Origin: Neorhizobium sp. SHOUNA12A
GTDB taxonomy: Bacteria > Pseudomonadota > Alphaproteobacteria > Rhizobiales > Rhizobiaceae
DNA length: 64,000 bases
Reading direction: 5' to 3'
Assembly (NCBI RefSeq): GCF_023006505.1
Contig: NZ_JALBGV010000005.1
Coordinates: forward strand, 1 to 64,000
Part shown: positions 1,457 to 20,800 of the stretch, piece after piece
Layout of the letters: each line of letters begins with the position of its first letter
How positions within the stretch are numbered: the stretch's first letter is position 1
The notes under the pieces: model-generated
Told to the model about the DNA's origin: nothing
Database searches by the model: none
What the model saw: only the letters and a program-made list of their open reading frames with translations
Program-made: the position numbers and the translations under genes

Positions 1457-1785
1457 CCCTCGACCTCTTCCCGCCGCCCCTTCCGATATCGATATTGGGT
1501 ATGAATCTATTCTGGCATCCCAGGATTCGAATGGATCCGGCACACTATCTGCAGGGTGCGACACCGGCGGCGCATAGCGTGGCCGAGAACCGCAGGCACG
1601 GGAAACTCGAAAAATCCTACGCCTGGTTAATTCACATAAGCATGATTTTAAGGCACTTGCTCAATCTGCAGCCACCTAAGCACATGAAAAAGCGTGCATC
1701 TTTCAAAAAACTCCCTATAAAAATATCAGTTGACATATTACAGAAGATACCGGAGGCTCGTCGTGATTATCGAGATAGGGTTCTG
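1457..1785. other. Intergenic leader between IS element and catabolic cluster
   Basis: There are 329 bases without a convincing gene. The IS-proximal half is GC-rich. The half next to the racemase gene is much more AT-rich (about 1620-1740), as expected of a promoter or leader for the following plus-strand cluster. A TTGACA hexamer lies at 1730-1735, but no good -10 hexamer sits 16-18 bases after it, so I do not call a promoter. No Shine-Dalgarno-led small ORF and no stable terminator is evident. Confidence 0.5.
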
Positions 1786-2445
1786 ATGAAAATTCTTGTC
1801 CTCAATCCGAATAGTTCGGCGAAGGTGACCGAGGCAATCGCGGCGAGCATCGCGCCGTTGCAGGCGGTGACGAAGCACACGATCGTATGCGATCGCCTAC
1901 CCGATGCGCCGATCGGCATCGAGACCGATGAGGATGTGGCGCTTGTCGCGCCTATGGTCGTCGACGCGATCGCTGCAAGCGATGCGGATGCCTTCGTCGT
2001 AGCCTGCTTTTCCGATCCCGGTGTTGCTGCGTCGCGATCGGCGACGAACCGACCGGTGGTTGGCATCGCGGAGGCTGCATATTATGCCGCGCTGCAGCTT
2101 GCGCCGCGCTTCGGTGTCGTCTCGCTCGGGGCTTCTTCGGTTGCTCGCCATGCGGCCCATATCGAACGGCTGGGCCTGACTGCGCGTCTCGCAGCGGACA
2201 GGGCTGTCAACATGTCCGTGGCGGAAGCGAACGACCTGAACCTGGCCGGCACATCGGTCGCGCGCACCGCCAAGGTCATGGCGGAAACGGACGGCGCCGG
2301 TGTCGTGATCCTCGGCTGTGCCGGCATGGGCGGTCATCGTCCCGTGCTGCAGCAGGAGTTGGGCGTGCCGGTCGTCGATCCCGTTCAGGCGGCCGTTGCG
2401 GCCGCGATCAACGCGCTCGATCTCCAATATTTTGCCAAGGGTTGA
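1786..2445 (+). CDS. Asp/Glu/hydantoin racemase family protein
   Basis: A 219-residue member of the aspartate/glutamate/hydantoin racemase superfamily. It begins MKILVLNPNSS, the characteristic N-terminus of hydantoin racemases, and has the two cysteines that act as acid/base pair: C74 in VACFSDPG and C178 in LGCAGMGG. The start at 1786 was chosen because homologues begin at this motif; upstream in-frame codons run into IS-flanking DNA. It is the first gene of a tight plus-strand cluster, and the amidohydrolase gene starts four bases after its stop. By context it probably epimerises an amino acid or cyclic ureide/amide so that the next enzyme can open it. A second paralogue lies at 16798-17544. 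The exact substrate is unknown. Confidence 0.85.
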   Translation: MKILVLNPNSSAKVTEAIAASIAPLQAVTKHTIVCDRLPDAPIGIETDEDVALVAPMVVDAIAASDADAFVVACFSDPGVAASRSATNRPVVGIAEAAYYAALQLAPRFGVVSLGASSVARHAAHIERLGLTARLAADRAVNMSVAEANDLNLAGTSVARTAKVMAETDGAGVVILGCAGMGGHRPVLQQELGVPVVDPVQAAVAAAINALDLQYFAKG

Positions 2446-2449
2446 TCCG

Positions 2450-3820
2450 ATGGAGCTTGTCGTCAAGGGTCGCGTTGTGGTGCCGGATGGCACCCTTGAA
2501 AACGGCTGGGTAGCAATCTCCGGCGGTCGCATAGCCGCTGTCGGTACGGGCGAAGCGCCCTCAGCCGCGCGCATCGACGACCGTGGGAATGCGCTCATCC
2601 TCCCCGGTGCGGTGGATGGCCAAACCCATGCAACAAGCTACAAGGGCCTCCCCGGCATCGCCGACACGACGCGGTCGGCGATCGCAGGAGGGGTCACCAC
2701 GCTGGTCGACATGCCTTATGACAATCCGGAGCCGCTTGATCGGCCGGAGCGTCTGGATGCCAAGGTCGCAGCGATCGCAGCGCATTCTCATGCCGACATG
2801 GCGCTTTATGGAACGGCGACCCGTGAGACGGGCACGGCCAACCTGGCGGCGCTGATCGAAGGCGGCGTGGTCGCCTTCAAAATCTCGTCGTTCGAGAGCA
2901 ATCCCGTGCGCTTCCCGCGGATCGCCGAGGACCTCACGCTCGACCTGATGGAGTCGCTGGCTTCGACGCACATTCCGCTCGGGCTGCACAATGAGGATCA
3001 GGAGATCGTCATGGCCCGCATCGCACAGGCGAAGGCGGCTGGCCGCAACGGGATCGTCGCGCATGCGCAAGCACGGCCGGAGGCGGCCGAGCTGGCGGCG
3101 ACCGGCCAGTTCCTGGCTCTCGGCCTTGCAAGCGGGGCGCATGTCCATCCGGTCCATCTGACGACGGAAGCGGGCTTTCGCCTGACCGGAGCGGTCGCCG
3201 GACTTGGTGCGGCGGCAACAGGCGAGCTTTGCGTCCATTATCTCTGGCTGGATGCCGCGCGCGACGGCGATCGGCTCGGAGCGAGGATGAAGGTGAACCC
3301 GCCCATCCGTTCGGCTGCGATCGATGGCTTGTGGCAGTCGATTTCCGACGACCTCGTGGCATTCGTTTCCTCCGATCATTCGAGCTGGCCGATCGACAAC
3401 AAGCTGACCGACTCGATCTTTGATGCAGGTGCAGGCGTTCCCGGCCTCGAGACGCTCTTCCCGGCGTTCTTCACGGCCGCCGAAGCGCGTGGCTTCGACG
3501 CTGCGCGCCTTAGTGCTGAATATCTGGCTGAGCGTCCCGCCCGCTTCTTCGGCATCGACGACCGCAAGGGCGCGATCGTCGTCGGCCGCGATGCCGACCT
3601 GGTCGCGCTCGAACAGGGTTCGTTCGTCTGGGACGAGGCGGCCTCTCATGACGGCCTGAACTGGAGCCCCTTCCACGGCGAGACCTTCACGGTCCGCGTG
3701 GCGGCAAGCTGGCTGCGCGGACAGCTCGTCTGGGACGGCAAGGACATTCTCAACAGCCCCGGCAGCGGACAATTCGTACCGCGCGCCACCGCCGGCTGGT
3801 ATGCGACCGAAAAGGACTGA
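2450..3820 (+). CDS. Dihydropyrimidinase/hydantoinase/allantoinase-like cyclic amidohydrolase
   Basis: A 456-residue metal-dependent amidohydrolase of the cyclic-amide (hydantoinase, allantoinase, dihydroorotase) group. Visible metal-site elements are D56-G-Q58-T-H60 near the N-terminus, the likely carboxylated lysine K144 in AFKISS, H180 in LHNED, H236 in the HVHPVHLT segment, and D309 in SSDHSSW. The usual first metal ligand His of DxHxH is Gln (Q58) here, a variant also known in some dihydroorotase-like proteins. The fold should be a TIM barrel with small beta domains at both ends. With the racemase just upstream and a lyase three bases downstream it fits ring opening of an imported cyclic amide or ureide. 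Activity could differ from D-hydantoinase because of the altered site. Confidence 0.82.
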   Translation: MELVVKGRVVVPDGTLENGWVAISGGRIAAVGTGEAPSAARIDDRGNALILPGAVDGQTHATSYKGLPGIADTTRSAIAGGVTTLVDMPYDNPEPLDRPERLDAKVAAIAAHSHADMALYGTATRETGTANLAALIEGGVVAFKISSFESNPVRFPRIAEDLTLDLMESLASTHIPLGLHNEDQEIVMARIAQAKAAGRNGIVAHAQARPEAAELAATGQFLALGLASGAHVHPVHLTTEAGFRLTGAVAGLGAAATGELCVHYLWLDAARDGDRLGARMKVNPPIRSAAIDGLWQSISDDLVAFVSSDHSSWPIDNKLTDSIFDAGAGVPGLETLFPAFFTAAEARGFDAARLSAEYLAERPARFFGIDDRKGAIVVGRDADLVALEQGSFVWDEAASHDGLNWSPFHGETFTVRVAASWLRGQLVWDGKDILNSPGSGQFVPRATAGWYATEKD

Positions 3821-3822
3821 CG

Positions 3823-4749
3823 ATGGCACGTCTTGACGAAAAGGTGCGCGGTGTCTTCGTGATCTCGGTCACGCCGTTCCAGGATGACGGATCGCTCGAT
3901 CTGGATAGCCTCGACCGCGTGACAGACTTCTACCTGGAGGCAGGTGCCGATGGTCTGACCGTTCTTGGTATGATGGGCGAGGCGCCCAAGCTGACGGGCA
4001 CCGAGTCCCGACAAGTCATCCAGCGCGTCATCGCACGGGCGCAGGGCAAACCGGTCGTGGTCGGCGTCTCGTCGCCCGGTCTTGCAGCTCTCGCCGAAGT
4101 CAGCCACGAGGCGATGGCACAGGGTGCTGCTGGCGTGATGATCGCGCCGCCGATGAGCCTTCGCACGGACGCGCAGATCCTGAATTACTACCGCCAGGCC
4201 TGTGGCTTCCTGGGCAGCGACGTGCCGGTCGTGCTTCAGGACTTCCCGCTGGCGACGACAGTGCAGATCAGCGACGAACTGCTTGGCCATCTGATCGACG
4301 ACCTTCCGCAGATCGTCATGCTCAAGCACGAGGACTGGCCGGGCCTGTCGAAAATCTACAAGCTTCGCGATGCGGAAAAGAAGGGTCGTCGGCGTATTTC
4401 CGTGCTTTGCGGCAATGGTGGCGTTTTCCTCCCCGAAGAGGTCGCGCGCGGCGCCGATGGCGCCATGACCGGCTTCGGTTTCCCGGAAATGTTGGTGCAG
4501 GTTACTGATCTGGCGGGCCGCGGCGAGATGGATCGTGCCCAGGACCTCTTCGATGCCTACCTGCCGCTCGTCCGTTACGAGCAGCAGCCGGGCGTCGGGC
4601 TTGCGGTTCGCAAATACGTGCTGGCCAAGCGTGGCGCCATTGCCTCGGCCGCGCAACGCCAGCCCGGTGCTAAATTGGATGCGCTGGCGCAGGCCGAAGT
4701 GGAGCGGCTGCTTCGCCGGCAGGAAAAGCGCCTCGCGGAGCTGGGCTGA
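3823..4749 (+). CDS. DapA/NAL-family class I lyase or deaminase
   Basis: A 308-residue protein of the dihydrodipicolinate synthase / N-acetylneuraminate lyase family (TIM barrel). The Schiff-base lysine is K168 in IVMLKHED, and the phosphate/carboxylate-binding region is GMMGEAPKLTGTE. The tyrosine that normally stacks over the active site (YNxP motif) is replaced: the segment reads VVLQDFP, with Q139 at the Tyr position. True dihydrodipicolinate synthases keep that Tyr, so this is unlikely to be lysine biosynthetic. It more likely cleaves, hydrates or deaminates a keto-acid-type intermediate made by the neighbouring hydrolase. Its start lies two bases after the amidohydrolase stop, implying translational coupling. 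Confidence 0.85.
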   Translation: MARLDEKVRGVFVISVTPFQDDGSLDLDSLDRVTDFYLEAGADGLTVLGMMGEAPKLTGTESRQVIQRVIARAQGKPVVVGVSSPGLAALAEVSHEAMAQGAAGVMIAPPMSLRTDAQILNYYRQACGFLGSDVPVVLQDFPLATTVQISDELLGHLIDDLPQIVMLKHEDWPGLSKIYKLRDAEKKGRRRISVLCGNGGVFLPEEVARGADGAMTGFGFPEMLVQVTDLAGRGEMDRAQDLFDAYLPLVRYEQQPGVGLAVRKYVLAKRGAIASAAQRQPGAKLDALAQAEVERLLRRQEKRLAELG

Positions 4750-4791
4750 TGGACTACGGATTTACCGGACGCAAGGCGCCGGTTCCTGGTG

Positions 4792-4805
4792 CAAGCCGCG
4801 GCTTG
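4792..4805 (+). promoter_or_regulatory. Perfect 14-bp palindrome before the binding-protein gene
   Basis: CAAGCCGCGGCTTG is self-complementary. It lies in the 123-base gap between the DapA-like gene and the solute-binding-protein gene. It could fold as an RNA hairpin that attenuates or protects the binding-protein message, or be a protein operator. No T-tract follows, so it is not a classical terminator. Confidence 0.4.
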
Positions 4806-4872
4806 GGCGCGGCGCGCAATACGTGGAAATAAATCAGCAAGTAAAATCGAACCAACAAAAAAGGGGAATGAC

Positions 4873-5709
4873 ATGATGAAAAAAACACTGTGCCTTGCTT
4901 TCCTTGCCATGACGGCGACCTCCGCGCTGGCGGAACCGACCCTCACCAAGGGAAAGATCTCGTTTGCCGCAGATTTCGCCGCGGCTCCGAACCAGTTCAT
5001 CCGTACCGATGGCCAGAAGGACGGCCTCAATGTGGACATGTGCGGTGAGATCGGAAAACGCCTCGGGCAGGAAGTCGAATGGACCAACCTTGCGTTTCCC
5101 GGCCTGGTCCCCGGCCTCCAGGCAAAGCGCTTTGACAGCCTCTGCACCGCGATCTTCATCAACCCGGACCGCCTGAAGATCATGAACATGATTGCCTACG
5201 TCCAGTGGGGTGAAGGCATGATGGTGCCGAAGGGCAATCCGGGCGGTATTTCGTGCGAAGGCAAGATCGGCATGCCGGCCAGCTACAATGCCTGCTTCGA
5301 TGGCCTGGCCGGCAAAGTCGTCTCCGTCGCAGCCGGCGGCACGACCAACAAGAACCTGCAGGCGCAGAGCGACCGCATGGTCGCCGCCGGAAAGAAGGCG
5401 ATCGACATCCGCGCCTTCGATTCCAACTCGGAAGCCATTCAGGCGGCTGTGACAAAGCAGGTCGATGCGGCCTACCTGAACGACCCGCAGGCAGCCTATT
5501 ACATCTCCACCAGCAAGGCGCCGTTCGAAATGGCGTTCACCGGCAACGCGGCCAACCGCCTTGCGATCACGACGCTGAAGGACAATACCGATCTGGCGAA
5601 CATGATCGTCAAGGCGCTCGAAGCGATGCGCGCGGACGGCACCTATAACAAGATCGTCGAGAAGTGGGGCGTGGCTCCGGTCGATGCCTTCGTCCTCAAC
5701 CCGCAGTGA
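4873..5709 (+). CDS. Amino-acid-type ABC transporter substrate-binding protein
   Basis: A 278-residue periplasmic binding protein of family 3 (SBP_bac_3). A Sec signal peptide is clear (MMKKTLCLAFLAMTATSALA, cleaved before EPTL). The mature part has the two-lobe family 3 pattern, including GLNVDMCGEIGKRLG, the Asn/Asp hinge region and a C-terminal KIVEKWGV helix. The ligand is probably a charged or zwitterionic amino-acid-like compound. The start at 4873 is preceded by AAGGGG six bases upstream. It delivers substrate to the permeases at 5727-6434 and 7562-9058; together with the catabolic enzymes this suggests that the cluster imports its own substrate. Confidence 0.9.
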   Translation: MMKKTLCLAFLAMTATSALAEPTLTKGKISFAADFAAAPNQFIRTDGQKDGLNVDMCGEIGKRLGQEVEWTNLAFPGLVPGLQAKRFDSLCTAIFINPDRLKIMNMIAYVQWGEGMMVPKGNPGGISCEGKIGMPASYNACFDGLAGKVVSVAAGGTTNKNLQAQSDRMVAAGKKAIDIRAFDSNSEAIQAAVTKQVDAAYLNDPQAAYYISTSKAPFEMAFTGNAANRLAITTLKDNTDLANMIVKALEAMRADGTYNKIVEKWGVAPVDAFVLNPQ

Positions 5710-5726
5710 TCTGATATAGGTTGCCG

Positions 5727-6434
5727 ATGCAGTTCTCGGTCGAGACATTCCTGCATTATCTGGCTCAGCCACGGTTTGCCACCGTGGCTGGTGTCACACT
5801 GCTGGTCGCGATCGCAGCGCAAGCGATCGGAACCGTGATCGGGTTGATCCTGGCGTTGTGCGCCCTGTCGCGGCACAGGGCCTTGCGGATACTCTCCGGG
5901 ACCTGGGTCTGGCTTTGGCGCGGCACGCCGCCGCTGGTCCAGCTTTTCCTTCTCTATTTCGGCCTACCCCAGCTCGGCATTCGGCTCGGGGTGCTGGAGG
6001 CGGGGCTGATCGGCCTCGGCTGCTACTCCGGCGCCTACATGTCCGAGATCATACGCGGCGCATTGCAGAGCGTGCCGCCCGACCAGATGCAGGCCGCCCG
6101 GGCAATGGGCATGAGCTGGCTCGGCGCCATGCTGCACGTGATCCTGCCGCAATCGGTGCGGTTGATCCTGCCGCCGTTCGGCAACGAATTTTCCTCGATG
6201 ATGCGCACCACATCGCTTCTTTCGGTCATTTCCTTCAGCGAACTTCTGCGCGTCACGCGAACCGCCATCAACGAAACCTACGCTGTCATCGAACTCTATG
6301 CGGTCGCGGCCTTCTGGTACCTGCTGATGTATTCCGCCTGGATCATCGTGCAGAGCCAACTCGAACGCTACGCCGCAGCAGGCAGCGTCAAACGAAACAT
6401 GACCAACGTCGCGACCCCGGTGGCGAAAGGTTGA
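5727..6434 (+). CDS. Amino-acid ABC transporter permease (HisM/GlnP type)
   Basis: A 235-residue inner-membrane permease of the His/Glu/Gln/Arg family. It has about five transmembrane helices, beginning with VAGVTLLVAIAAQAIGTVIG. The RGTPPLVQLFLLYFGLP signature is present and the EAA-type cytoplasmic loop (ARAMGMSWLGAMLHVILPQ) contacts the ATPase. The ATG at 5727 is preferred over the TTG six bases upstream because GATATAGG sits at a better distance. It should form a heterodimer with the permease half of the fused protein at 7562-9058. It lies 17 bases after the binding-protein stop. Confidence 0.9.
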   Translation: MQFSVETFLHYLAQPRFATVAGVTLLVAIAAQAIGTVIGLILALCALSRHRALRILSGTWVWLWRGTPPLVQLFLLYFGLPQLGIRLGVLEAGLIGLGCYSGAYMSEIIRGALQSVPPDQMQAARAMGMSWLGAMLHVILPQSVRLILPPFGNEFSSMMRTTSLLSVISFSELLRVTRTAINETYAVIELYAVAAFWYLLMYSAWIIVQSQLERYAAAGSVKRNMTNVATPVAKG

Positions 6435-6459
6435 GATACTCGTATTCCGGAGAAACTGA

Positions 6460-7557
6460 ATGAAGACCGCTGTTCTGTTCGGCGTCGGCGCCATGGGCGG
6501 GCGACTGCTGCGCGTACTCGAAGCCGACTACCCGACCGTCGAGATAGTTGCCGCCATCGATACCGATGCCGCGAAGATCGGCCGCACGCTGGCCGACGTC
6601 ACGGGCTACCAGCGTTTCGGCAGCGTAAAGATTGTCGGCGATCTCGCTTCGGCACTCGCCGGAATTTCAGGGAAACCGGACGTGCTGGTGCACATGACGG
6701 AGTCCAAGCCTCACCTTATTAAGGAGCAACTGCTCGATGCCCTGAATGCGGGCCTCAATGTGGTGTCGGCTGCCGAATCCATGTTCTATCCCGGCCTTCG
6801 CTATGGCGAGTTTGCTGAAGCGCTGGACAGTGCGGCGAGGGCCAGCGGCGTGTCGATCACCGGCACCGGCATCAATCCCGGGTTTTCCTACGATGTGCTT
6901 CCGCTGGTTCTGGCACGCGGCACCAGCGCCGTAAAGCGTCTGACCATCCATCGCTGCATTGACGTCACCGGCACGGGGCCGGGGGATATCGAGCATGTCG
7001 GATACGGTCTGACGCCCGAGGAGTTCAACCGCCGCATCGCCAATGGCCGCGTCGAGGGTCACATGGGTGCGCCGGAATCGCTGATCCGCATCGCAGATGC
7101 CCTCAATCTGGAGATCGACGAGATCACCGAGGCATGGGATCTCGAGACGGCCGATTTCGAAGTCGATAGCGGCGATCCGACACTCGGCATCCTGCCGCCC
7201 GGCCGCGTCATCGGCATCACCCAGCGTGCCCGGGCGCTACATCAGGGCAGGGAGGTGCTCAGCACCTCGCTTGCCATGTACTACCAGCCGGAAAAGTTCA
7301 ACCTCGTCGAGGAAGACCGGATCGAGATCGATGGCGCTATGCCTGTCAAAATGTCGATCAAGCCTGCCATGCAGTCGCTGTTCGGCGCGGCCAACATCAT
7401 GGCCAACACGATCGTGCCGCTGGCCGATGCCGAGCCGGGTTTGGTGTCTCCGCTGGATCTGCCTACGGGCGGCACCGTGCGCGGCGTTTCGCGCTACGCG
7501 GTGGATCCGTCGCGCCAGACCAGGCCCGGTTACCTACCGGTTGTGAGAAGGGTCTGA
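6460..7557 (+). CDS. NAD(P)-dependent amino-acid dehydrogenase resembling 2,4-diaminopentanoate dehydrogenase
   Basis: A 365-residue oxidoreductase. Its Rossmann nucleotide-binding motif is GVGAMG (about residues 8-13) and its N-terminal fold resembles dihydrodipicolinate reductase. The motif TGTGINPGFSYD (about 131-142) is typical of the 2,4-diaminopentanoate dehydrogenase group, which oxidatively deaminates diamino acids in ornithine degradation. A good Shine-Dalgarno (GGAGAA) precedes the ATG. It lies between two transporter genes, so it is almost certainly co-transcribed and acts on a product of the imported compound. By context an amino or imino acid intermediate is likely; the precise substrate cannot be read from the sequence. 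Confidence 0.75.
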   Translation: MKTAVLFGVGAMGGRLLRVLEADYPTVEIVAAIDTDAAKIGRTLADVTGYQRFGSVKIVGDLASALAGISGKPDVLVHMTESKPHLIKEQLLDALNAGLNVVSAAESMFYPGLRYGEFAEALDSAARASGVSITGTGINPGFSYDVLPLVLARGTSAVKRLTIHRCIDVTGTGPGDIEHVGYGLTPEEFNRRIANGRVEGHMGAPESLIRIADALNLEIDEITEAWDLETADFEVDSGDPTLGILPPGRVIGITQRARALHQGREVLSTSLAMYYQPEKFNLVEEDRIEIDGAMPVKMSIKPAMQSLFGAANIMANTIVPLADAEPGLVSPLDLPTGGTVRGVSRYAVDPSRQTRPGYLPVVRRV

Positions 7558-7561
7558 TTTC

Positions 7562-9058
7562 GTGGGTTTCGACACCGGCATATTCCTGGATATCCTTCAG
7601 TCGCCTCTGTTGCTGAAGGCGGCCTGGGTGACGATCTGGGTTGCCGTCGTCGCTCAGACGATTGGCACGGGTCTTGGCTTCGTCCTGGCAGGCATGCTGG
7701 CGGCGCCCAGGCTGCTGCGCTGGCCGGCACTCGGCTTCCTTTGGCTGTTCAAGGGCACACCGCTGCTCGCGCAGATCCTGTTCTTTTATTCCGCGCTGCC
7801 GCAGATGGGCGTTCCCTTGAGCCTGATCGCCACCGGCCTGCTGTCACTGGGCCTGAACGAAGGGGCTCGCATGGCCGATATCGTGCGCGGCGGCCTGATG
7901 TCCGTCTCGCGCGATCAGCGCGAGGCAGGCCTGGCGCTGGGGCTCCATCAGTGGCAGATTTTCCTCAAGGTGGTGTTCCCGCAGGCAATAAGGGCAATCA
8001 TACCGCCGCTCGGCAACAATTTCAGTTACATGATCAAGGCCACGTCGCTGCTCGCTGCCATCTCTTTCGCCGAGCTCCTGCGCGTCTCCCAGCAACTCGC
8101 CCAATCGACCACCCGCGCGCTGGAAGTCTATCTGGCCGTCGCGCTCTGGTATCTCGTCATCCTGACGATCTGGACGCTCATACAGCACCGGATCGAAAAG
8201 GCCGTCGCGCTGAAGACCTCCAGTCACGTATCCGCACCGCCGCCGATCGTCGAGCGCAGCGTGGTGCGAGGCGGCCTGGGACCGGATGCGCCTTCTCGTC
8301 GCGACCCGGTGCTCGAGGCGCGCAACCTCACCCGCAGCTTCGGGCCGATCAAGGGACTGGACGATGTCTCGCTTTCCGTCGGCAGGGGCGAAGTCGTGGT
8401 GGTCCTCGGTCCGTCGGGGTCGGGCAAAAGTACGTTGCTGCGCGCGCTGAACTGGATCGAGCCTGCGGATAGCGGCGATGTCCTGCTTGCGGGCGAAAGT
8501 CTGCCTTGGGCCGATGCGGTCCGTCGTATCGCTCGCCCGGAGCACATGCTGGACAAGCGTCGCCGTCGCCTCGGCATGGTGTTCCAGAGTTTCGCGCTGT
8601 TTCCCACGATGACGGCTCGGCAGAACGTGGCTTTAGGCCCTCGCAGGCTGCTCGGCATTCCGAAGACGGAGGCGCTTGCTGCCGCGGACAGACTGCTCGA
8701 CAAGGTCGGGCTCAAGGACAAGCTGCACTCCTATCCCGTGGAATTGTCCGGTGGACAGCGCCAGCGCGTCGCCATTGCGCGGGCGTTGTCGATGAAGCCC
8801 GATGCCGTGCTCTTCGATGAACCGACATCCGCTCTGGACCCGGAATCCGTGGGAGGCGTCCTGGGCGTGATGGCGGATTTGGCCGGACAAAGTTTGACGA
8901 TGGTGATCGTGACACACGAGATTGGATTTGCCCGACGAATCGCCGACCGCATCGCCTATATGGAGCGCGGCCGCCTGTTGATGGATTTGCCGCGCGATCA
9001 GGCTTTTGGCGATGATGCGCCGGATTACTTCCGCGCTTTTCTGTCTCGCGAAGGATAA
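7562..9058 (+). CDS. Fused amino-acid ABC transporter permease-ATPase
   Basis: A 498-residue single-chain fusion. Residues 1 to about 220 are a HisM-type permease with the FKGTPLLAQILFFYSALPQ signature and the coupling loop EAGLALGLHQWQIFLKVVFP (about 121-140). A linker of about 30 residues follows. Residues from about 253 are a PAAT-type ATPase with Walker A GPSGSGKS (283-290), Q-loop FQSFALFP, signature LSGGQRQR (from about 395), Walker B AVLFDEP and the switch His in VTHEIG. These are normally separate proteins. The GTG start at 7562 is preceded by GAGAAGGG. With the 5727-6434 permease it would give a dimer with only one ATPase per permease pair unless two fused chains assemble. Confidence 0.9.
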   Translation: MGFDTGIFLDILQSPLLLKAAWVTIWVAVVAQTIGTGLGFVLAGMLAAPRLLRWPALGFLWLFKGTPLLAQILFFYSALPQMGVPLSLIATGLLSLGLNEGARMADIVRGGLMSVSRDQREAGLALGLHQWQIFLKVVFPQAIRAIIPPLGNNFSYMIKATSLLAAISFAELLRVSQQLAQSTTRALEVYLAVALWYLVILTIWTLIQHRIEKAVALKTSSHVSAPPPIVERSVVRGGLGPDAPSRRDPVLEARNLTRSFGPIKGLDDVSLSVGRGEVVVVLGPSGSGKSTLLRALNWIEPADSGDVLLAGESLPWADAVRRIARPEHMLDKRRRRLGMVFQSFALFPTMTARQNVALGPRRLLGIPKTEALAAADRLLDKVGLKDKLHSYPVELSGGQRQRVAIARALSMKPDAVLFDEPTSALDPESVGGVLGVMADLAGQSLTMVIVTHEIGFARRIADRIAYMERGRLLMDLPRDQAFGDDAPDYFRAFLSREG

Positions 9059-9189
9059 TCAGGGATAAGCCATGTGGAATTGGCCATCGGGTAAAAACGC
9101 CGCCTTTCGATTGTGTTTTGTACATGCATATCTGCCGGAGCGATCGTCGGATTGCGGGCTGAAAGGCCGACTTACAGATAGGAGAGCCC

Positions 9190-9906
9190 ATGGCTGAGAT
9201 ATCAGCAATCAGGAAGAAGCGTCGGGTGGTGCAGCCGGCAAAGCCGGCATCGCTGATGGAACAGGTTCACGATGCGCTGCGAACCCAGATTCTGACATGC
9301 GCAATCCGTCCAGGTCAGGAACTGAACGAAGCTGAAATCGCGGAGCGCTTCAATATATCCAAGACGCCGGCCCGCGAAGCGTTGGCCGCCTTGCGGCAGG
9401 AGGGACTGGTCAGATCTTTTCCGCGCCGCGGCTACCAGGTCACGCCGATCACGTTTGCCGACATGGACGAACTGTTCGACGTGCGAACCATTCTGGAAGC
9501 AGGCGCCGCCGAACTCGCCTGCACCCGGCTGACGGGGGAGCAGATAGATCGTCTGAACTCCCTTGCAGATGCCACCTATAATCAAGGCGAGCAGCTCAGC
9601 CTCGCTACGTTCATAAGGTCCAACCGTGAATTCCATCTGGCGATTGCGGAAGCGACCGGCAATGGAAGGCTCGTCCAGCTACTGACCCATCAGATCGATG
9701 CGCTTGAACGTTTCTTCTATCTCGGCGCCCAGCTGCGGGACGTGAACAACGAGACCAGCGTCTCGCACCACCAGATCGTCGAAACCCTGGCCCGTCGTGA
9801 CCAGGCGGCTGCACGGGAAATCATGATCCGTCACAACGAGCAGACCCGCCAGGGACTGTTCCAGGCGCTTGCGACAGGGCGGGGATACGATCTGATTAAC
9901 CTCTAG
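9190..9906 (+). CDS. GntR/FCD-family transcriptional regulator
   Basis: A 238-residue regulator. The N-terminal winged helix (about residues 18-80) includes ELNEAEIAERFNISKTPAREAL, the classic GntR recognition helix. The C-terminal FCD all-helical ligand domain (about 90-225) has metal-site residues in FHLAIAEATGN and a late SHHQIVETL histidine region. This FadR subgroup usually binds carboxylic or amino acid effectors. It sits in the middle of the catabolic cluster, 131 bases after the transporter and before the oxidase, so it is the likely local repressor. GGAGAG precedes the ATG. No operator palindrome could be assigned with confidence. Confidence 0.9.
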   Translation: MAEISAIRKKRRVVQPAKPASLMEQVHDALRTQILTCAIRPGQELNEAEIAERFNISKTPAREALAALRQEGLVRSFPRRGYQVTPITFADMDELFDVRTILEAGAAELACTRLTGEQIDRLNSLADATYNQGEQLSLATFIRSNREFHLAIAEATGNGRLVQLLTHQIDALERFFYLGAQLRDVNNETSVSHHQIVETLARRDQAAAREIMIRHNEQTRQGLFQALATGRGYDLINL

Positions 9907-9941
9907 CGCTGGGCCAAGGTCCCGCATGAACAGGAATGATG

Positions 9942-11231
9942 ATGGAAATCGGGTCATTGTGGGAGGCGATCACGCCAGCCGCGCCCAAATGCGCAAAGCT
10001 GACGGACGCGATCACCGCCGATGTGGTGATAGTGGGTGCCGGGTTCCTCGGCCTTTCATCCGCCCTGCACGCCGCCGAGGCGGGGCTCGACGTGGTTCTG
10101 CTCGAAAGTCATCAGCCTGGCTTCGGCGCATCCGGGCGCAATACCGGCTTCGTGGTTCCGAGCCTCAAGACATCGCTGGGACCTGACGAGGTCGTGGCGG
10201 CGCTCGGCGCCGATCATGCCGGGCGCCTGCTGAAACTGGTGGCGGGCTCTGGCCGGGCGGTGTTCGATCTGATTAGTCGCTACGATATCGATTGCGATGC
10301 AGTCCAGAACGGCTGGTTGCAGCCCGCACATTCGCGCGCGGCAGAGGAGGTGCTTCATGGCCGTATGCCGCGGCTGCTGGACGCCGGCGTCGACGCCGAA
10401 TGGCTCGATCGCGAAGCCATGCTGAAGCGGACCGGGCTGCCGTCGCTGCATGGCGGAATCCGCGTGGCGTCCGGTGGCCAGATCACGCCGCTGGCCTATG
10501 CGTACGGGCTCGCGCGCGCTGCCATATCAGCGGGAGTACGACTGTTCGGCGACAGTCCCGCAAAGAGCATCGAACCCCATGGGCAGAGTTGGCGCGTGCG
10601 GACTGCCGCTGGCGAGGTTCGCGCCCGCCGCGTGCTCATGGCCACCAACGCGCTGATCGGCAACCTGTTGCCGGAGTTGCGTGCGTCGATCATTCCCGCT
10701 CGTGTGTTCCAGATCGCTACCCAGCCGCTGCCGCTGCCTCTTCGCGAGACACTGTTGCCTGACATGGCCCCGGTTGCCGATACGCGCCGTCATACGTTCG
10801 CATTGCGCTGGTCTCCAGACGGCCGACTGGTGACCGGGGGCATGGTGCCACCGCTGCCCGGACGAATGGCATTGGCCCGCAGGCTTTTTGCAAATCGTCT
10901 TCGCCGCATGGTTCCGGATCTCCCGGAAGTCAGAGTGGAATATTCATGGACCGGGATGATTGCCGGTACACCGGATTTCCTGCCGCGGATGATGCGCATC
11001 AAGCCGGGCATCGATGCGGTGATCGGCTGCAACGGCCGCGGCGTAGCGCTGACGACGGCTTTCGGACGAGAAATTGGTCCCTGGCTTGCCGGCCGGATGG
11101 CGGATGCGGACCTGACCTTGCCGCTGACCGCGCCGCGACCGATTCCCTTCAGCCGCATATCCGGACTAGGACCGCATCTCATCCTGCCGGTCTGGGAGGC
11201 CCGGGACGCTTTCGAAGCGCGGTTCCGATAG
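9942..11231 (+). CDS. FAD-dependent amine/D-amino-acid oxidase family protein
   Basis: A flavoprotein of about 429 residues of the DAO (glycine oxidase, sarcosine oxidase, gamma-glutamylputrescine oxidase) family. The dinucleotide-binding motif is DVVIVGAGFLGLSSALHAAE with the acidic strand end in VVLLES; GASGRNTGFV is the usual flavin-contact segment after it. The C-terminal motif GCNGRGVALTTAFGR closes the FAD site. It should oxidise an amine or amino acid to the imine, giving H2O2 or passing electrons on. Three consecutive ATGs occur at 9936, 9939 and 9942; the last is best spaced from AGGA. It follows the GntR gene by 35 bases. Confidence 0.85.
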   Translation: MEIGSLWEAITPAAPKCAKLTDAITADVVIVGAGFLGLSSALHAAEAGLDVVLLESHQPGFGASGRNTGFVVPSLKTSLGPDEVVAALGADHAGRLLKLVAGSGRAVFDLISRYDIDCDAVQNGWLQPAHSRAAEEVLHGRMPRLLDAGVDAEWLDREAMLKRTGLPSLHGGIRVASGGQITPLAYAYGLARAAISAGVRLFGDSPAKSIEPHGQSWRVRTAAGEVRARRVLMATNALIGNLLPELRASIIPARVFQIATQPLPLPLRETLLPDMAPVADTRRHTFALRWSPDGRLVTGGMVPPLPGRMALARRLFANRLRRMVPDLPEVRVEYSWTGMIAGTPDFLPRMMRIKPGIDAVIGCNGRGVALTTAFGREIGPWLAGRMADADLTLPLTAPRPIPFSRISGLGPHLILPVWEARDAFEARFR

Positions 11232-11282
11232 AGCCGCCACACGTCTGGAAATTCAATTTTCTGCGAACCAAGGAGTCATGAC

Positions 11283-11663
11283 ATGAGCGAAGAAGCGGTT
11301 GGCGGCAAGATCAAGTGGTCGCGCCAGGAACAGGTCGCGCTGACCTGGGTGCATCCGGGCCAGGAGTTCAGCCACCGGCTGGTCACAAAGAAGCTGCACG
11401 GCTCGTCGATTTCCTTCCACATCACCACTTACATGCCGCACTTCGACACCATGGTCGAGGGTGATGGCGTGCATGAGGTGATCCTCTATTGCCTGCATGG
11501 CTGGTCCAAGCAGATCGTTGAGGAGACCGGCGAGGAGCACATCTTCAAGCCTGGCGATGCGATGTACCTGCCCGTCAATTACCGCTACCGCCACATCATC
11601 GGCGAGGCCGGCCTCGTGATCGCCGTCTGCGCCAACCCTTCGAAAGAAGCGGGCGACATGTAA
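11283..11663 (+). CDS. Small cupin-domain protein
   Basis: A 126-residue single-domain protein with a cupin-like pattern: acidic and His residues in EGDGVHEVILYCLHG, a turn at FKPGDAMYLPVNYRYRH, and a C-terminal strand LVIAVCANP. It may be a metal-binding isomerase, hydrolase or dioxygenase-type accessory enzyme of the cluster. Only some of the canonical His/Glu ligands are obvious, so a structural or sensor role is also possible. It lies 51 bases after the oxidase gene, with AAGGAG upstream, and is followed by a GC-rich hairpin. Confidence 0.65.
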   Translation: MSEEAVGGKIKWSRQEQVALTWVHPGQEFSHRLVTKKLHGSSISFHITTYMPHFDTMVEGDGVHEVILYCLHGWSKQIVEETGEEHIFKPGDAMYLPVNYRYRHIIGEAGLVIAVCANPSKEAGDM

Positions 11664-11670
11664 TTTCCGT

Positions 11671-11696
11671 GCGGGCGGGGATAAGCTGCCGCCCGC
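11671..11696 (+). terminator. GC-rich hairpin after the cupin gene
   Basis: GCGGGCGG (11671-11678) pairs with CCGCCCGC (11689-11696) around a 10-base loop, starting 8 bases after the cupin stop. No T-tract follows, so it may be a partial or Rho-assisted terminator, or an mRNA-stabilising hairpin before the creatininase gene. Confidence 0.45.
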
Positions 11697-11721
11697 TACT
11701 CCAGCCGCGAGGGTTCCGGAC

Positions 11722-12603
11722 ATGACAGGCATTGCACCCAGGCATTTTGCGCCGTCTTCATTCATATGGGCCGAATTGACGCGTGCAGAGCTGGCGGCGA
11801 AGCGGGATGCCGGTGCTTTGGTCGTCGTGCCGACGGGTGCGATCGAGCAGCACGGCGACTTCCTTCCCGTGGAGACCGATACGCTGCTTTCGGCCGCGGT
11901 TGCCGAACTCGCGGCAAGCCGCGTAACCAGGGTGGAAATTGTCGTGGCGCCCGCTGTTTCCGTTGGCTTCTCGCCGCATCACCTCAGCCATCCGGGCACG
12001 ATCAGCCTACGGCTGGAAACCTATCTGGCAGTTCTTTCCGATACCGCGCGATCAATCCTGGATTCCGGATTTCCGCGCGTCGTCTTCGTCAACGGTCATG
12101 GGGGCAACTCGGCGCCGTTGCGCTCGCTCTGCGCCCAGATGGTGACCGATGGATATGCGGTTGGCATGGTCGATTATTTCGCACCGGGCGAGAGGGACTG
12201 GTTGCCGCTTCTGAAGGGCGCACTGCCGCGCACCGGCCATGCCTGCGAACAGGAGGCGGCGTTGACGATGGCATTGACCTCTCCGGAAGCGAGCGAACGG
12301 GTCCGATCGGCGATCGAAGGGCTTCCGGCGCGCCTGGTGCAGCCCTGGATCGCGCCGGGCCACACGGGCGATCCGATCACCGCGTTCGGGGCAGGCTGGC
12401 CGCCGATCTTCCAGGCGGACGACTGCGGTTATTTCGGCGATCCGGCAAAGGCTACCATGGAAAACGGCGCCTTGATCCTCGAAGCGACGGTTGCGGGTCT
12501 GGCGGCATTTTTGGAAGCATTCGCCCGTACACCGTTGCGGCTGGGAATCGCTCGTGACGCCGCCTCGCCGAGGCTGGCGAGAGAAATTCGAGAGCGGACG
12601 TAA
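11722..12603 (+). CDS. Creatininase-family amidohydrolase
   Basis: A 293-residue member of the creatinine amidohydrolase superfamily, which also includes enzymes acting on formamides and cyclic amides. The metal-binding signature GAIEQHGDFLP gives E42, H44 and D46-type residues. VNGHGGN around residues 123-129 supplies H126 and the glycine-rich loop, and HACEQEAA contributes another His/Glu pair. It is the last gene of the plus-strand cluster, 58 bases after the cupin gene. Two different amidohydrolases in one cluster (this and 2450-3820) suggest stepwise hydrolysis of a cyclic amide and a second C-N bond. I cannot tell whether creatinine itself is the substrate. Confidence 0.85.
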   Translation: MTGIAPRHFAPSSFIWAELTRAELAAKRDAGALVVVPTGAIEQHGDFLPVETDTLLSAAVAELAASRVTRVEIVVAPAVSVGFSPHHLSHPGTISLRLETYLAVLSDTARSILDSGFPRVVFVNGHGGNSAPLRSLCAQMVTDGYAVGMVDYFAPGERDWLPLLKGALPRTGHACEQEAALTMALTSPEASERVRSAIEGLPARLVQPWIAPGHTGDPITAFGAGWPPIFQADDCGYFGDPAKATMENGALILEATVAGLAAFLEAFARTPLRLGIARDAASPRLAREIRERT

Positions 12604-12758
12604 GCAAGAATGACCGGGTCAATATCGCGGCCAGACGTGGTAGTCGCTTGACAGTCGTCGCGCACGCGGTCACCATTTCACAATGGGGTTGCGATCACCC
12701 CACGAGGCGTCAGCCGAAGAATCGCGTCCATTCAACCCAAAACCAGGGAGGACGCGCT

Positions 12759-13574
12759 ATGCCGTCATTTCTCGAAATTTCTCCTGAAAAACTCAACCGC
12801 CTTGTCGGTACGCCCGGCGCACCGCTCATCATCGACGTCCGCACGGACGAAGACTTCGCGCTCGATCCGCGGCTGGTACCGGGATCCGTCCGCCGCAAGC
12901 ACGAGAATGTCACAGAATGGAGCGGAGCCGTCGACGCTGAATCTGTCGTTGTCGTCTGCCAGAGGGGTGGCAAGCTTAGCCACGGCGTCGCCGCCTATCT
13001 CAGGCACGAAGGGGTGGCGGCCGAAAGCCTGGAAGGCGGCTTCGAGGCCTGGGCCGCCGGAGGGATGGCGGTTCCGGAGGACAAGTTGCCTCCCCGCGAC
13101 GGCCAAGGTCGAACCGTCTGGGTTACGCGCGTCCGGCCGAAGATCGACCGTATCGCCTGTCCCTGGTTGATCCGGCGTTTCATCGATCCGGACGCAGTGT
13201 TTCTTTATGTGCCGGCTTCCGAAGTTTCGATGGTTGGCAGCCGGTTCGGTGCGACACCCTTCGATATCGAGGATGTATTCTGGAGCCACCGGGGCGAGCT
13301 CTGCACGTTCGACGTCATGGTCGAGGAATTCGGGCTGACCTGTGATGCGTTGCTGCGTCTTGCAACCATCGTCAGGGCGGCCGACACCGCGCGACCCGAT
13401 CTTGCCCCAGAGGCGCCAGGGTTGCTGGCGGCGTCGCTCGGTCTGTCGCGGATGTATAACGATGACCTTGAGCAGCTTGAGGCTGGCATGCTTCTCTACG
13501 ACGCCTTCTATCGCTGGTGCCGCGATGCTACCGAGGAGACCCATAACTGGCCTTCGGTGAAGAAGGGAGCTTAA
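12759..13574 (+). CDS. Rhodanese / ChrB C-terminal domain fusion (chromate resistance)
   Basis: A 271-residue protein with two parts. Residues 1 to about 105 are a rhodanese-like domain containing IIDVRTDEDF and the active-site loop VCQRGGKLS with C67. From about 118, VWVTRVRPKIDRIACPWLIRR and FDIEDVFWSHRG match the C-terminal domain of chromate-resistance protein ChrB. Its stop lies one base before the chrA start codon and a strong GGGAGGA precedes its own start, so it is chrA's partner. ChrB-type proteins sense chromate or help ChrA-mediated resistance; the rhodanese half could handle thiol or sulfur chemistry. This is not the classical ChrB N-terminal DNA-binding form. Confidence 0.85.
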   Translation: MPSFLEISPEKLNRLVGTPGAPLIIDVRTDEDFALDPRLVPGSVRRKHENVTEWSGAVDAESVVVVCQRGGKLSHGVAAYLRHEGVAAESLEGGFEAWAAGGMAVPEDKLPPRDGQGRTVWVTRVRPKIDRIACPWLIRRFIDPDAVFLYVPASEVSMVGSRFGATPFDIEDVFWSHRGELCTFDVMVEEFGLTCDALLRLATIVRAADTARPDLAPEAPGLLAASLGLSRMYNDDLEQLEAGMLLYDAFYRWCRDATEETHNWPSVKKGA

Positions 13575-13575
13575 A

Positions 13576-14979
13576 ATGGCCGAGGTCATCAGAGATGCGT
13601 CCGCGGATCGCGAGAAAAGCGAATATATCCATGGAGTCTCCTTCGGCGAGGCCTTCAAGGTTTGGGTCCGTATCGCCGCTCTCAGTTTCGGTGGACCGGC
13701 TGGACAAATCGCCGTCATGCATCGGATCATTGTCGACGAGAAGCGGTGGATCGGCGAAAACCGCTTCCTTCATGCCCTCAACTACTGCATGCTTCTGCCC
13801 GGACCGGAAGCCCAGCAGCTCGCGATCTATATCGGCTGGCTGATGCATCGGACCGCGGGCGGACTGGTTGCAGGCATCCTGTTTGTGCTCCCCGGATTTC
13901 TGGCCATCCTTGGCCTGAGCTACATCTACGCGGCCTTCGGAAGCGTAGGCGTTGTCGCCGGACTGTTCTTTGGTCTGAAGGCGGCCGTTCTCGCGGTCGT
14001 TGTCCAAGCCGTCTTCCGGATCGGCAGCCGGGCTCTCAAGAACAATGCCATGGTGACGATCGCTGCTGCCGCCTTCGTCTCGATCTTCTTCCTGCATGTC
14101 CCGTTTCCATTGATCGTTCTGACTGCGGGCATCGTCGGTTATTGCGGCAGCAGGTTCGGTCTTGCGTCTTTCAAGGTCGGGGGCGGCCACAAGACGGCCG
14201 GTGGCCCTACACTTTCAGACGCCGACTCGCTCCTCGGAGAGGGGACGCCGGCTCACGCACGCTCCAACCTCTCATGGTCGCTTCGCATCTCGGCGATCCT
14301 TCTCGCACTCTGGATCATACCCATCGGCTTATTGTGGTGGGTCCTGGGTTCGAATGACGTCTTCACCCAAATCGGGTTTTTCTTCAGCCAGATGGCAGTC
14401 GTCACCTTTGGCGGGGCCTATGCGGTTCTCGCTTATGTGGCGCAGGAGGCCGTCCAGCATTATGGATGGCTGAAACCTGGGGAGATGCTCGATGGCCTTG
14501 GCATGGCAGAGACGACACCCGGACCGCTGATCATGGTGGTGCAGTTTGTCGGCTTCATGGGCGCCTTTCGCGATCCCGGAGCGCTCAACCCGATGATCGC
14601 GGCGACCCTCGGCGCGATCCTGACCACATGGGTCACCTTCGTTCCATGCTTCCTCTGGATATTCCTCGGCGCGCCGTTCATCGAAAAGCTGCGTGGCAAC
14701 ATCGCGCTTGCCGGAGCGATGTCGGCGATCACCGCGGCGGTGGTCGGGGTGATCCTCAACCTCGCCATCTGGTTTGCGTTGCATACGCTGTTTGAAGAAG
14801 TCCACGTGGTCCGTCTGGGAGCGTTTTGGCTCGACATACCGGTCCTCGGTTCGATCGTCCTTCCGGCCGCTATCCTTTCGACCGCGGCCGCAGTTGCGAT
14901 CTTTCGGTTCAGAGTCTCGGTGATTACCACGCTGCTCGCCTGCGCACTCGCTGGCATGGCGTGGACGCTCGCGACATGA
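13576..14979 (+). CDS. chrA: Chromate transporter ChrA
   Basis: A 467-residue polytopic membrane protein of the CHR family, long-chain form with two homologous halves. The N-terminal half has FGGPAGQIAVMHRIIVDEKRW and LLPGPEAQQLAIYIGW; the second half repeats the pattern with FGGAYAVLAYVAQ and ETTPGPLIMVVQFVGF. About ten membrane segments are visible. It exports chromate, a sulfate analogue, using the proton gradient. It follows the rhodanese-ChrB gene with no gap and AAGGGAG as ribosome site, so the two form an operon. A weak hairpin (15035-15070) follows. Confidence 0.95.
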   Translation: MAEVIRDASADREKSEYIHGVSFGEAFKVWVRIAALSFGGPAGQIAVMHRIIVDEKRWIGENRFLHALNYCMLLPGPEAQQLAIYIGWLMHRTAGGLVAGILFVLPGFLAILGLSYIYAAFGSVGVVAGLFFGLKAAVLAVVVQAVFRIGSRALKNNAMVTIAAAAFVSIFFLHVPFPLIVLTAGIVGYCGSRFGLASFKVGGGHKTAGGPTLSDADSLLGEGTPAHARSNLSWSLRISAILLALWIIPIGLLWWVLGSNDVFTQIGFFFSQMAVVTFGGAYAVLAYVAQEAVQHYGWLKPGEMLDGLGMAETTPGPLIMVVQFVGFMGAFRDPGALNPMIAATLGAILTTWVTFVPCFLWIFLGAPFIEKLRGNIALAGAMSAITAAVVGVILNLAIWFALHTLFEEVHVVRLGAFWLDIPVLGSIVLPAAILSTAAAVAIFRFRVSVITTLLACALAGMAWTLAT

Positions 14980-15034
14980 GCGGAAATATCGGAGCCGTGG
15001 CATCCGAGGTCGAGTTTTTAGTTGCTTAGAGATG

Positions 15035-15070
15035 CGCGGCGCTTAAAGCATATGCGTATCAGACGCCGCG
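15035..15070 (+). terminator. Possible hairpin between chrA and the ureidoglycine gene
   Basis: CGCGGCG (15035-15041) is complementary to CGCCGCG (15064-15070) across a 22-base loop. It could end the chrA transcript, but no T-tract follows and the loop is large. Confidence 0.3.
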
Positions 15071-15093
15071 AAATTGGACCGCAAAACAGACCC

Positions 15094-15915
15094 ATGACCA
15101 ACAGAGATTATTATTCGAAACTCGGTGGCCTGCCGCCGCAGACCGAACTGCTTTCCAGCAAGGCTGTTTTCACGACATCCTACGCCGTCATCCCCCGAAG
15201 CGTCATGTCAGACATCGTGGCCAGCCTGCTTCCCCATTGGCAGGGAACCCGGGCATGGATCATCTCCCGCCCGATGACGGGGTTTTCGGAGACGTTCTCG
15301 CAATACATCATGGAGGTTCAACCTGGAGGCGGAAGCGACCGGCCGGAACCCGATACCCGCGCCGAGGCGGCGATCTTCGTCGTCGAGGGCGAGATGTCGA
15401 TCGAGTTCGCCGGAAGCGATCATGCGCTGAGGGCCGGTTCCTTTGCATATATCCCGGCCGGATCGCCATGGAAGCTGCGCAATCGGGCCACGGCGCCCGT
15501 CAAGTTCCATTGGGTCCGCAAGGCCTTCCAGGCGGTCGAGGGGCTGGATGCTCCGCCGGCGGTCTTCACCCATGAAGACGAACATCCGATTTCCTGGATG
15601 CCGGACACGGGCGACCGCTGGGGAACCACCCGTTTCCTCGATACGTCCGACGTCCGTTACGACATGCATCTCAACATCGTCACGTTGGAGCCGGGCGCGA
15701 CCATCCCCTTCATGGAGACCCATGTCATGGAGCACGGCCTCTACGTGCTCGAAGGCAAGGCGGTCTATCGGCTCAATCAGGATTGGGTCGAAGTGGAGGC
15801 CGGCGACTACATGTGGCTGCGCGCCTTCTGCCCGCAGGCCTGTTATGCGGGTGGTCCGGGACGTTTCCGTTATCTGCTCTACAAGGATGTCAACCGGCAC
15901 ACCCAGCTCTGGTAG
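15094..15915 (+). CDS. (S)-ureidoglycine aminohydrolase
   Basis: A 273-residue bicupin. Both halves carry the cupin pattern: EAAIFVVEGEMSIEF and SFAYIPAGSPWKLRN in the first, and IPFMETHVMEHGLYVLEGKA with GDYMWLRAFCPQACY in the second. The second half contains the E/H/H/Q-type Mn site expected of ureidoglycine aminohydrolase (AllE/YlbA/UGHY). The enzyme removes ammonia from (S)-ureidoglycine, giving (S)-ureidoglycolate, after allantoate hydrolysis in purine degradation. The ATG at 15094 fits homologue N-termini (NRDYYSKLGG); longer in-frame starts give an implausible basic leader. It stands alone here, without allantoate amidohydrolase next to it. Confidence 0.9.
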   Translation: MTNRDYYSKLGGLPPQTELLSSKAVFTTSYAVIPRSVMSDIVASLLPHWQGTRAWIISRPMTGFSETFSQYIMEVQPGGGSDRPEPDTRAEAAIFVVEGEMSIEFAGSDHALRAGSFAYIPAGSPWKLRNRATAPVKFHWVRKAFQAVEGLDAPPAVFTHEDEHPISWMPDTGDRWGTTRFLDTSDVRYDMHLNIVTLEPGATIPFMETHVMEHGLYVLEGKAVYRLNQDWVEVEAGDYMWLRAFCPQACYAGGPGRFRYLLYKDVNRHTQLW

Positions 15916-17544: not shown

Positions 17545-17549
17545 TCTGT

Positions 17550-18368: not shown

Positions 18369-18386
18369 CTCAGAGTTCCCCTTTTC

Positions 18387-19301: not shown

Positions 19302-19322
19302 GTCTTGATGTCTCCCTGGGTT

Positions 19323-19467: not shown

Positions 19468-19474
19468 ACTTTGT

Positions 19475-20764: not shown

Positions 20765-20800
20765 TGCCTTGTTCTCCTCTGGTTGAGTTTTTTGGTGGCA

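Follow-up and report, generated by a model that had tools for sequence, protein, structure and literature searches.

A widely shared gene cluster of Neorhizobium, probably for uptake and catabolism of a cyclic amide or urea compound

What is the function of eleven closely spaced plus-strand genes (1786-12603) near the start of contig NZ_JALBGV010000005.1 of Neorhizobium sp. SHOUNA12A, and do they act together? We analyzed the first 64,000 nucleotides of this contig (the whole stretch is called the window below; within its genome it is contig C173). A sequence-only reading had listed a racemase, a cyclic amidohydrolase, a DapA-like lyase, an amino-acid importer, a dehydrogenase, a regulator, an oxidase, a cupin and a creatininase-family enzyme, and translation and family searches agreed with that list, its order and the families named. 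We found that the eleven genes form a functional unit, and that the cluster is a real, widely shared and apparently undescribed uptake and catabolic unit whose substrate is probably a ring-shaped amide or urea compound. Our preferred reading, to which we give a probability of about 45%, is a horizontally moved catabolic operon that would import and degrade a small, chiral, carboxylate-bearing cyclic ureide or amide, hydantoin-like and with an amine. The earlier reading knew of no pathway with this exact set. In agreement with it, our literature search of titles and abstracts (subscription journals thinly covered) yielded no description of the gene set, and neither did a search around structure 7xdu.

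Conservation and co-occurrence of the cluster

One scan of a named-genome collection with the profile of the amine dehydrogenase (DAPDH, the diaminopentanoate-dehydrogenase-like gene) gave 20 loci. Seven of these have the complete set of eleven in colinear order, and so does a 2.1-Mb Neorhizobium galegae plasmid, which matches at 88% DNA identity across 99% of the query, so that there are eight Neorhizobium-type loci. Complete but rearranged sets occur at four distant loci, namely in genomes G183, G029 and G231 and on a plasmid of Martelella sp. NC18; in G029 and G231 the DAO-family oxidase (DAO) is only 35-36% identical. Partial sets are present in further lineages, for example in Prosthecomicrobium (Kaistiaceae) and Lichenicola (Acetobacteraceae), and pSymA, the symbiosis plasmid of Sinorhizobium meliloti Rm41, has the core of amidohydrolase (AmH) and DapA. 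Because the same set recurs in distant genomes, the gene association is far beyond chance. In the N. galegae plasmid record with the full set several genes are split; for the record of locus L002 (CP090555.1), in which several cluster genes are split, sequencing errors are a possible cause. The largest version seen lies on the Martelella plasmid (L106, 6789-25371), with two importers, one enclosing the amine dehydrogenase and one an AroM-family gene, and with an SDR dehydrogenase, a second DAO, a second AroM gene and a saccharopine-dehydrogenase-like gene in addition.

We also examined co-occurrence in 297 genomes of the order, including that of the window. AmH at at least 54% identity was found in 10 of them, DAPDH (E 1e-60) in 6, the cupin (1e-15) in 7, the creatininase-family gene (1e-40) in 6 and DAO at at least 50% identity in 5. 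When the 296 other genomes were considered, every carrier fell within the nine AmH genomes: six of six for the cupin (p 9.5e-11), five of five each for creatininase and DAPDH (p 6.9e-9 for both) and four of four for DAO (p 4e-7), where the p-values ignore relatedness and the identity limits of 54% for AmH and 50% for DAO were chosen after the tables had been seen. The best matches of cupin, creatininase, DAPDH and DAO each lie less than 14 kb from AmH on the same contig, with DAPDH in G050 as the sole exception. Weaker AmH relatives (49-51% identity) occur in G293, G278 and G250. In the single genome of the same genus that was searched, none of AmH, DAPDH, cupin and creatininase had a match at these limits. 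Around a DapA relative on contig C137 and an SDR relative on C3, where the stretch ends at the contig end, no other cluster relative was present in the stretches read.

These data bear on the simplest alternative, that the genes are chance neighbors with unrelated functions. In its favor, two of the families are common on their own (DapA is found in 94 and DAO in general in 110 of the 297 genomes), but it is already contradicted by the co-occurrence and the rearranged sets; we rejected chance assembly on the co-occurrence and regard its probability as negligible. The idea of one functional unit is thus upheld, since the full set recurs both colinear and rearranged and AmH is present in each genome with the cupin, creatininase or DAPDH. 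The opposite outcome named in the sequence-only reading, separate conservation in different contexts, does not hold for the set as a whole, and applies in part to DapA and DAO, which do also occur apart.

DNA similarity to the eight colinear loci ends at the cluster edges (about 1645-1787 and 12548-12642), and because it stops there, the cluster appears to move as a cassette. To the left lie a tRNA-Met gene (35-111) and an HTH_21-domain frame (641-1273), presumably an IS3-type fragment; this arrangement fits a mobile insertion site.

Table 1. Features of the cluster in the window, with the evidence for each assignment
Feature	Position	Strand	Evidence
Conserved block ATATCARTTGACATATYAC ahead of racemase; proposed GntR/FCD operator overlapping promoter	1723..1741	+	Exact match in clade
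Asp/Glu/hydantoin racemase (Rac)	1786..2445	+	PF01177, 177.5 bits
Cyclic amidohydrolase (AmH), ErtD-related	2441..3820	+	PF01979; NF058538, 474.3 bits against a cut-off of 600; tree
DapA-superfamily Schiff-base lyase or dehydratase	3823..4749	+	PF00701, 100.7 bits
5' stub of deleted SDR dehydrogenase gene, 27-codon frame	4749..4832	+	First 22 codons match intact SDR
Periplasmic substrate-binding protein (SBP), polar amino-acid type	4873..5709	+	PF00497, 96 bits on longer frame 4789-5709
ABC permease	5721..6434	+	PF00528, 74.8 bits; TIGR01726, 94.2 bits
Native amine dehydrogenase-like NAD(P)-dependent enzyme (DAPDH)	6460..7557	+	PF19328 (DAP_DH_C); predicted fold
ABC permease fused to ATPase	7562..9058	+	PF00528 and PF00005
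GntR/FCD regulator	9190..9906	+	PF00392 and PF07729
FAD-dependent amine oxidase, DAO family, nearest L-pipecolate oxidase	9936..11231	+	PF01266, 216 bits; NF050086, 273.2 bits
Ectoine-synthase-like cupin, cluster marker gene, 126 aa	11283..11663	+	Weak NCBIfam match; marginal PDB profile match; predicted fold
Creatininase-family amidohydrolase	11722..12603	+	PF02633, 173.9 bits (cut-off 31.3 bits)

The spacing is tight (Table 1): the AmH frame can start at 2441, overlapping the Rac stop, and only 2 bases separate AmH from DapA and 4 bases DAPDH from the fused permease/ATPase gene. The widest gaps are 131 bases before the GntR gene and 123 bases between DapA and SBP, the latter containing the SDR stub. 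The importer does consist of three genes, as had been read, with the refinement that one permease is fused to the ATPase and that the DAPDH gene sits among them. A generic promoter and terminator scan performed no better than on shuffled sequences.

Enzyme families and rival substrates

Next, we consider what the individual proteins indicate about the substrate. Rac has two cysteines conserved in all 16 alignment rows (near-copies left out). Family searches relate AmH to ErtD, allantoinase and hydantoinase, and the closest curated family is ErtD (NF058538), the hydantoin-5-propionate amidohydrolase of ergothioneine utilization. Five AmH relatives of 41-44% identity mostly exceed its curated cut-off of 600 bits (L019, L020, L022 and L034 above, L030 below), and five closer relatives score 465-503 bits. 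In both AmH and ErtD a Gln replaces the first His of what we take to be the metal HxH motif, and both have an RFPRI stretch. The scores for D-hydantoinase (TIGR02033, 161 bits against 393) and allantoinase AllB (TIGR03178, 247.4 against 357.85) are below the cut-offs. In the AmH tree the cluster enzymes form their own clade, which is the only part of the tree that we use because the ErtD rows have long branches. The earlier assignment as a cyclic amidohydrolase was therefore retained, with the family scores and the tree placing it nearest to ErtD rather than to the classical hydantoinases. Unlike in ergothioneine utilization, no ergothioneine-specific family was among the matches of the other ten genes. 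The cluster resembles hyu operons in combining a racemase with a cyclic amidohydrolase, but it differs from them in having no carbamoylase and in the additional lyase, amine dehydrogenase, DAO, cupin and creatininase. An ordinary hydantoinase or dihydropyrimidine operon was rejected, the genome's own dihydropyrimidinase and carbamoylase being on C143.

An ErtD-like hydrolase beside a hydantoin-type racemase would also suit detoxification or salvage of damaged metabolites, such as hydantoins of carbamoylated or oxidized amino acids, instead of growth on an external compound. However, an importer within the operon and the patchy distribution (the cupin in 6 of 296 other genomes, and the same-genus genome without matches) fit nutrient capture better, and we consider salvage very unlikely. 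The binding protein keeps the carboxylate-type Arg and the GTT motif, residue counts for which include near-identical loci of one clade, and it scores 65.7 bits against a cut-off of 190.9 for the ectoine importer EhuB (TIGR02995).

The DapA-like protein matches structure 3dz1 with 347 bits and L-KDA dehydratase with 111 bits, and shares the Gln-Asp site of the latter. It is below the cut-off for 4-hydroxy-tetrahydrodipicolinate synthase (TIGR00674, 89.4 bits against 206). The Schiff-base lysine of the DapA superfamily is kept in 20 of 20 rows, and the position of the Tyr that serves in DHDPS catalysis is Gln in 20 of 20, whereas the genome's own DHDPS has Tyr. Judged from these residues, dehydration or deamination would be as likely as carbon-carbon cleavage. 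The DapA superfamily assignment of the earlier reading stands, with the cleavage proposed there as one option beside these two.

This dehydratase-like site and the DAO, which is nearest to L-pipecolate oxidase (273 bits) though far from the 600-bit cut-off of AmaA (NF050086), raise the possibility of a hydroxyproline-like logic, in which an N-substituted cyclic amino acid or lactam (opine- or pipecolate-like) would be epimerized, oxidized by DAO and deaminated by the DapA-like enzyme, with the amidohydrolase opening a lactam. An epimerase, a DAO and a DapA-family deaminase make up the textbook hydroxyproline set, and hyp clusters share with this cluster ABC import, epimerization, a DAO, a DapA-family enzyme and a GntR regulator. 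Unlike them, it has a racemase of another family (PF01177 rather than the proline racemase family PF05544) plus a ring-opening amidohydrolase and an amine dehydrogenase, the latter having no role in such a logic. The sole PF05544 match of the genome is on C137, on which ground a hydroxyproline cluster proper was rejected, and the broader hydroxyproline-like logic seems improbable.

DAPDH has the native amine dehydrogenase fold in its predicted structure (the best of five models, with pLDDT 78.3 against 58.4-70.5) and a PF19328 C-terminal domain. Its Glu106, present in 16 of 16 rows, is a candidate for the catalytic Glu at position P3. Identity to the native amine dehydrogenases AmDH4 (Petrotoga mobilis) and TtherAmDH is 27% and 32%. 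The former label 'diaminopentanoate-dehydrogenase-like' is thus borne out by PF19328, and the predicted fold makes the enzyme a native amine dehydrogenase, for which 2,4-diaminopentanoate would be a hypothetical substrate. Its partner genes here presumably differ from those of ornithine fermentation. Among the groups set out in the relevant passages of a survey of native amine dehydrogenases, G2 is 2,4-diaminopentanoate dehydrogenase, and for G1 the survey gives no known substrate and draws no clear evidence from the genomic context (PMC11164908).

The cupin has no Pfam match and was assigned from the weak NCBIfam ectoine synthase match, the marginal PDB profile match and the predicted fold (the best of five models, mean pLDDT 79.0 against 58.2, 40.6, 40.4 and 39.8), which keeps the earlier cupin call and refines it to EctC-like. 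Glu65 and His104 are present in 12 of 13 rows and Tyr95 in 13 of 13, as matched to 5bxx by a marginal alignment, so that the three positions of the Glu-Tyr-His iron ligands of EctC (PMC6344544) are kept. This introduces the question of whether the substrate could be an ectoine-like cyclic amidine or another 2,4-diamino-acid ring, which the cupin would open as a reverse ectoine synthase while the amine dehydrogenase took the 4-amine and the amidohydrolases removed acyl groups. EctC is the top-ranked fold, but it is tied with other cupins (the next score 13.6 and 13.5, within 1 Z unit of it), the second Foldseek match of the model is nearly equal to the first, and the EctC cut-off was missed (NF009806, 20.6 bits against 128). 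In addition, ectoine would call for neither a racemase nor an ErtD-like hydrolase, many AmH-core loci show no cupin, and, unlike in ectoine biosynthesis, none of its families was over the cut-off among the other cluster genes. We therefore consider an ectoine-like substrate unlikely.

Exchangeable hydrolases, a lost dehydrogenase and regulation

The sequence-only reading had pointed to the absence of a carbamoylase and guessed that the creatininase might replace it. There is indeed no TIGR01879-type carbamoylase on C173; among seven matches in the genome, the two over the cut-off are on C143 and C144. The creatininase-family enzyme misses the creatininase equivalog (TIGR04448, 84 bits against 235), and creatinine degradation was rejected accordingly. 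We then sought four additional hydrolase kinds (creatininase, DUF2817, CN-hydrolase and amidase) at 39 AmH loci, a number that counts the same places once (L043, L047 and L050 coincide with L068, L070 and L069) and includes near-identical loci of one clade. Creatininase occurs without DUF2817 in 14 of them (the eight Neorhizobium-type loci, G183, G250, G029, G050, G231 and Martelella), and DUF2817 without creatininase in the stretch read in five (L051, L072, L075, L076 and L112); the genome of L051 (G225) has no creatininase genome-wide at 1e-40. Both are present in L073, a CN-hydrolase in L052-L055 and an amidase in L004, L107 and L111. Because relatives often have DUF2817, CN-hydrolase or amidase instead, the guess that the creatininase stands in for the carbamoylase gains support.

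The commonest core is AmH with DapA, often with Rac, SDR and GntR. AroM-family genes lie inside the amino-acid importer in L004, L106 and L111, as DAPDH does here, a PLP C-S-lyase-type gene is present in L003 and L045, and in G250 and G050 an ene-reductase-type FMN oxidoreductase, a third DAO and a GMC oxidoreductase are near the set. In five loci without visible creatininase, DUF2817 proteins are encoded close to Rac (e.g., L051, 7910-9034), a lead to the function of DUF2817. L052-L055 represent an AmH-core variant with a Rieske oxygenase and a CN-hydrolase, and a related pathway may start with the oxygenase.

A twelfth gene has been lost from the cluster. In N. petrolearium, Oryzicola and Corticibacterium, an intact 254-codon SDR gene begins inside the DapA stop codon, and many distant loci have an SDR relative. 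A 27-codon remnant is all that the window and N. tomejilense keep; that of the window shares 86% identity with the intact L060 SDR across 22 aa (E 6.5e-6). Three further junctions occur in N. vignae together with Rhizobium CF080, in N. galegae DS1978 and in N. galegae VafX2, so that six loci of the clade carry the deletion with four junctions. The best SDR relative in the window's own genome is 50% identical and on another contig.

The operon is probably under the control of its own GntR/FCD regulator, as suggested by conserved upstream sequences. The block ATATCARTTGACATATYAC before Rac is exact in the window and in seven of eight clade relatives, not in L002, and a related palindrome, ATATYACGTRATAT, lies ahead of racemase or transporter genes in more distant relatives. 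Matching at least 12 of 14 positions, ATATYACGTRATAT has 20 sites in 22 stretches against 0.8 expected from shuffles that move two-base blocks, the pattern having been drawn from some of the same stretches; 15 of the 20 are at most 400 bases upstream of Rac, GntR, SBP, cupin or DapA. In eight held-out loci there were five sites against 0.4 expected, in three loci, and three of these sites are just before Rac. We infer that ATATCARTTGACATATYAC and ATATYACGTRATAT may be the operator of the GntR/FCD regulator.

Proposed pathway and its meaning

Gene content, co-occurrence, the repeated palindromes of relatives and the family and fold assignments are direct results; the substrate class, each reaction and their order are what we infer from them, as follows. 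The polar-amino-acid-type ABC importer would take up the substrate, Rac would interconvert its enantiomers, and ring opening by AmH would yield an amino acid with an N-carbamoyl or N-acyl group, which the creatininase-family enzyme (elsewhere DUF2817, CN-hydrolase or amidase) would then strip off. Amine carbons could next be oxidized to carbonyls by the native amine dehydrogenase and the flavoenzyme DAO, and the DapA-like enzyme, through its Schiff-base lysine, could dehydrate, deaminate or cleave the resulting 2-oxo acid. In relatives, the SDR lost here would complete the oxidation, and the putative iron-cupin may close or open a cyclic amidine intermediate. The strongest hints to the substrate are the kinship with ErtD, which suggests a hydantoin ring whose side chain bears a carboxylate, and the EctC-like cupin with the amine dehydrogenase, which suggests 2,4-diamino-acid chemistry; a cyclic urea or amidine built from a diamino acid would reconcile the two. 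The import, epimerization, ring-opening, cleavage and oxidation first proposed are thus partly supported: the unit and the exchangeable hydrolase remain, and the assignments of AmH, DAPDH, DapA and cupin have changed.

Several observations weigh against a catabolic operon for a cyclic ureide or amide. That the SDR has been lost, with four junctions, points to a last step that is altered or no longer works. AmH reaches none of the cut-offs of the equivalogs listed, and DapA and DAO are unspecific, as their counts above indicate. In G050, DAPDH is 2.9 Mb away from AmH, and in 4 of 35 stretches, of which two lie at contig ends, the DAPDH-transporter module occurs with no AmH (this comparison includes near-identical loci of one clade and leaves out the ErtD-type L056 and L057). 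None of the four hydrolases was present in 12 of the 39 AmH loci, some of which are cut by contig ends (L003, L005, L006, with only a fragment of AmH, L044, L045, L066, L067, L071, L105, L108, L109 and L110). Finally, no strict ATATYACGTRATAT site (at least 12 of 14) was found in the first 16 kb of the window, one of nine among the 22 stretches without a site, as in five of the eight held-out loci.

A more far-reaching version, which we put forward as a doubtful possibility, is an undescribed pathway for a cyclic ureide or amidine derived from a diamino acid, exchanged horizontally and mostly among Alphaproteobacteria. It would comprise a catabolic EctC-like iron cupin, a native amine dehydrogenase outside ornithine fermentation and interchangeable modules around a racemase-amidohydrolase-DapA-SDR core. 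The modules would be several amine-removing enzymes (native amine dehydrogenase, DAO and the PLP C-S-lyase type), the four kinds of amide hydrolase and several importers.

Other features lie to the right of the cluster. A chrB-a RNA motif (12680-12761; Rfam RF03078, 79 bits) stands directly before a ChrB-like gene, and the gene after that (13576-14979) has the look of a chromate transporter by eye. A link to the bicupin at 15022-15915, presumably ureidoglycine-aminohydrolase-like, was rejected, there being no relative of at least 35% identity in the 35 stretches. On the minus strand, a second, separate Asp/Glu/hydantoin racemase gene is accompanied by an SBP_bac_8-type ABC importer (16798-21892), and an amidohydrolase with an adenine-deaminase C-terminal domain adjoins an FMN oxidoreductase (23531-26734) that shares 31% identity with the ene-reductase-type protein in the clusters of some relatives.

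The cluster provides a testable setting for orphan families, namely an AmH subfamily beside ErtD, an EctC-like cupin set in what looks like a catabolic cluster, and native amine dehydrogenases; the candidate operator and the binding protein make ligand discovery direct. Because the AmH-DapA core is found on pSymA of Rm41, the compound may be a metabolite from plants or soil that matters for competition in the rhizosphere.

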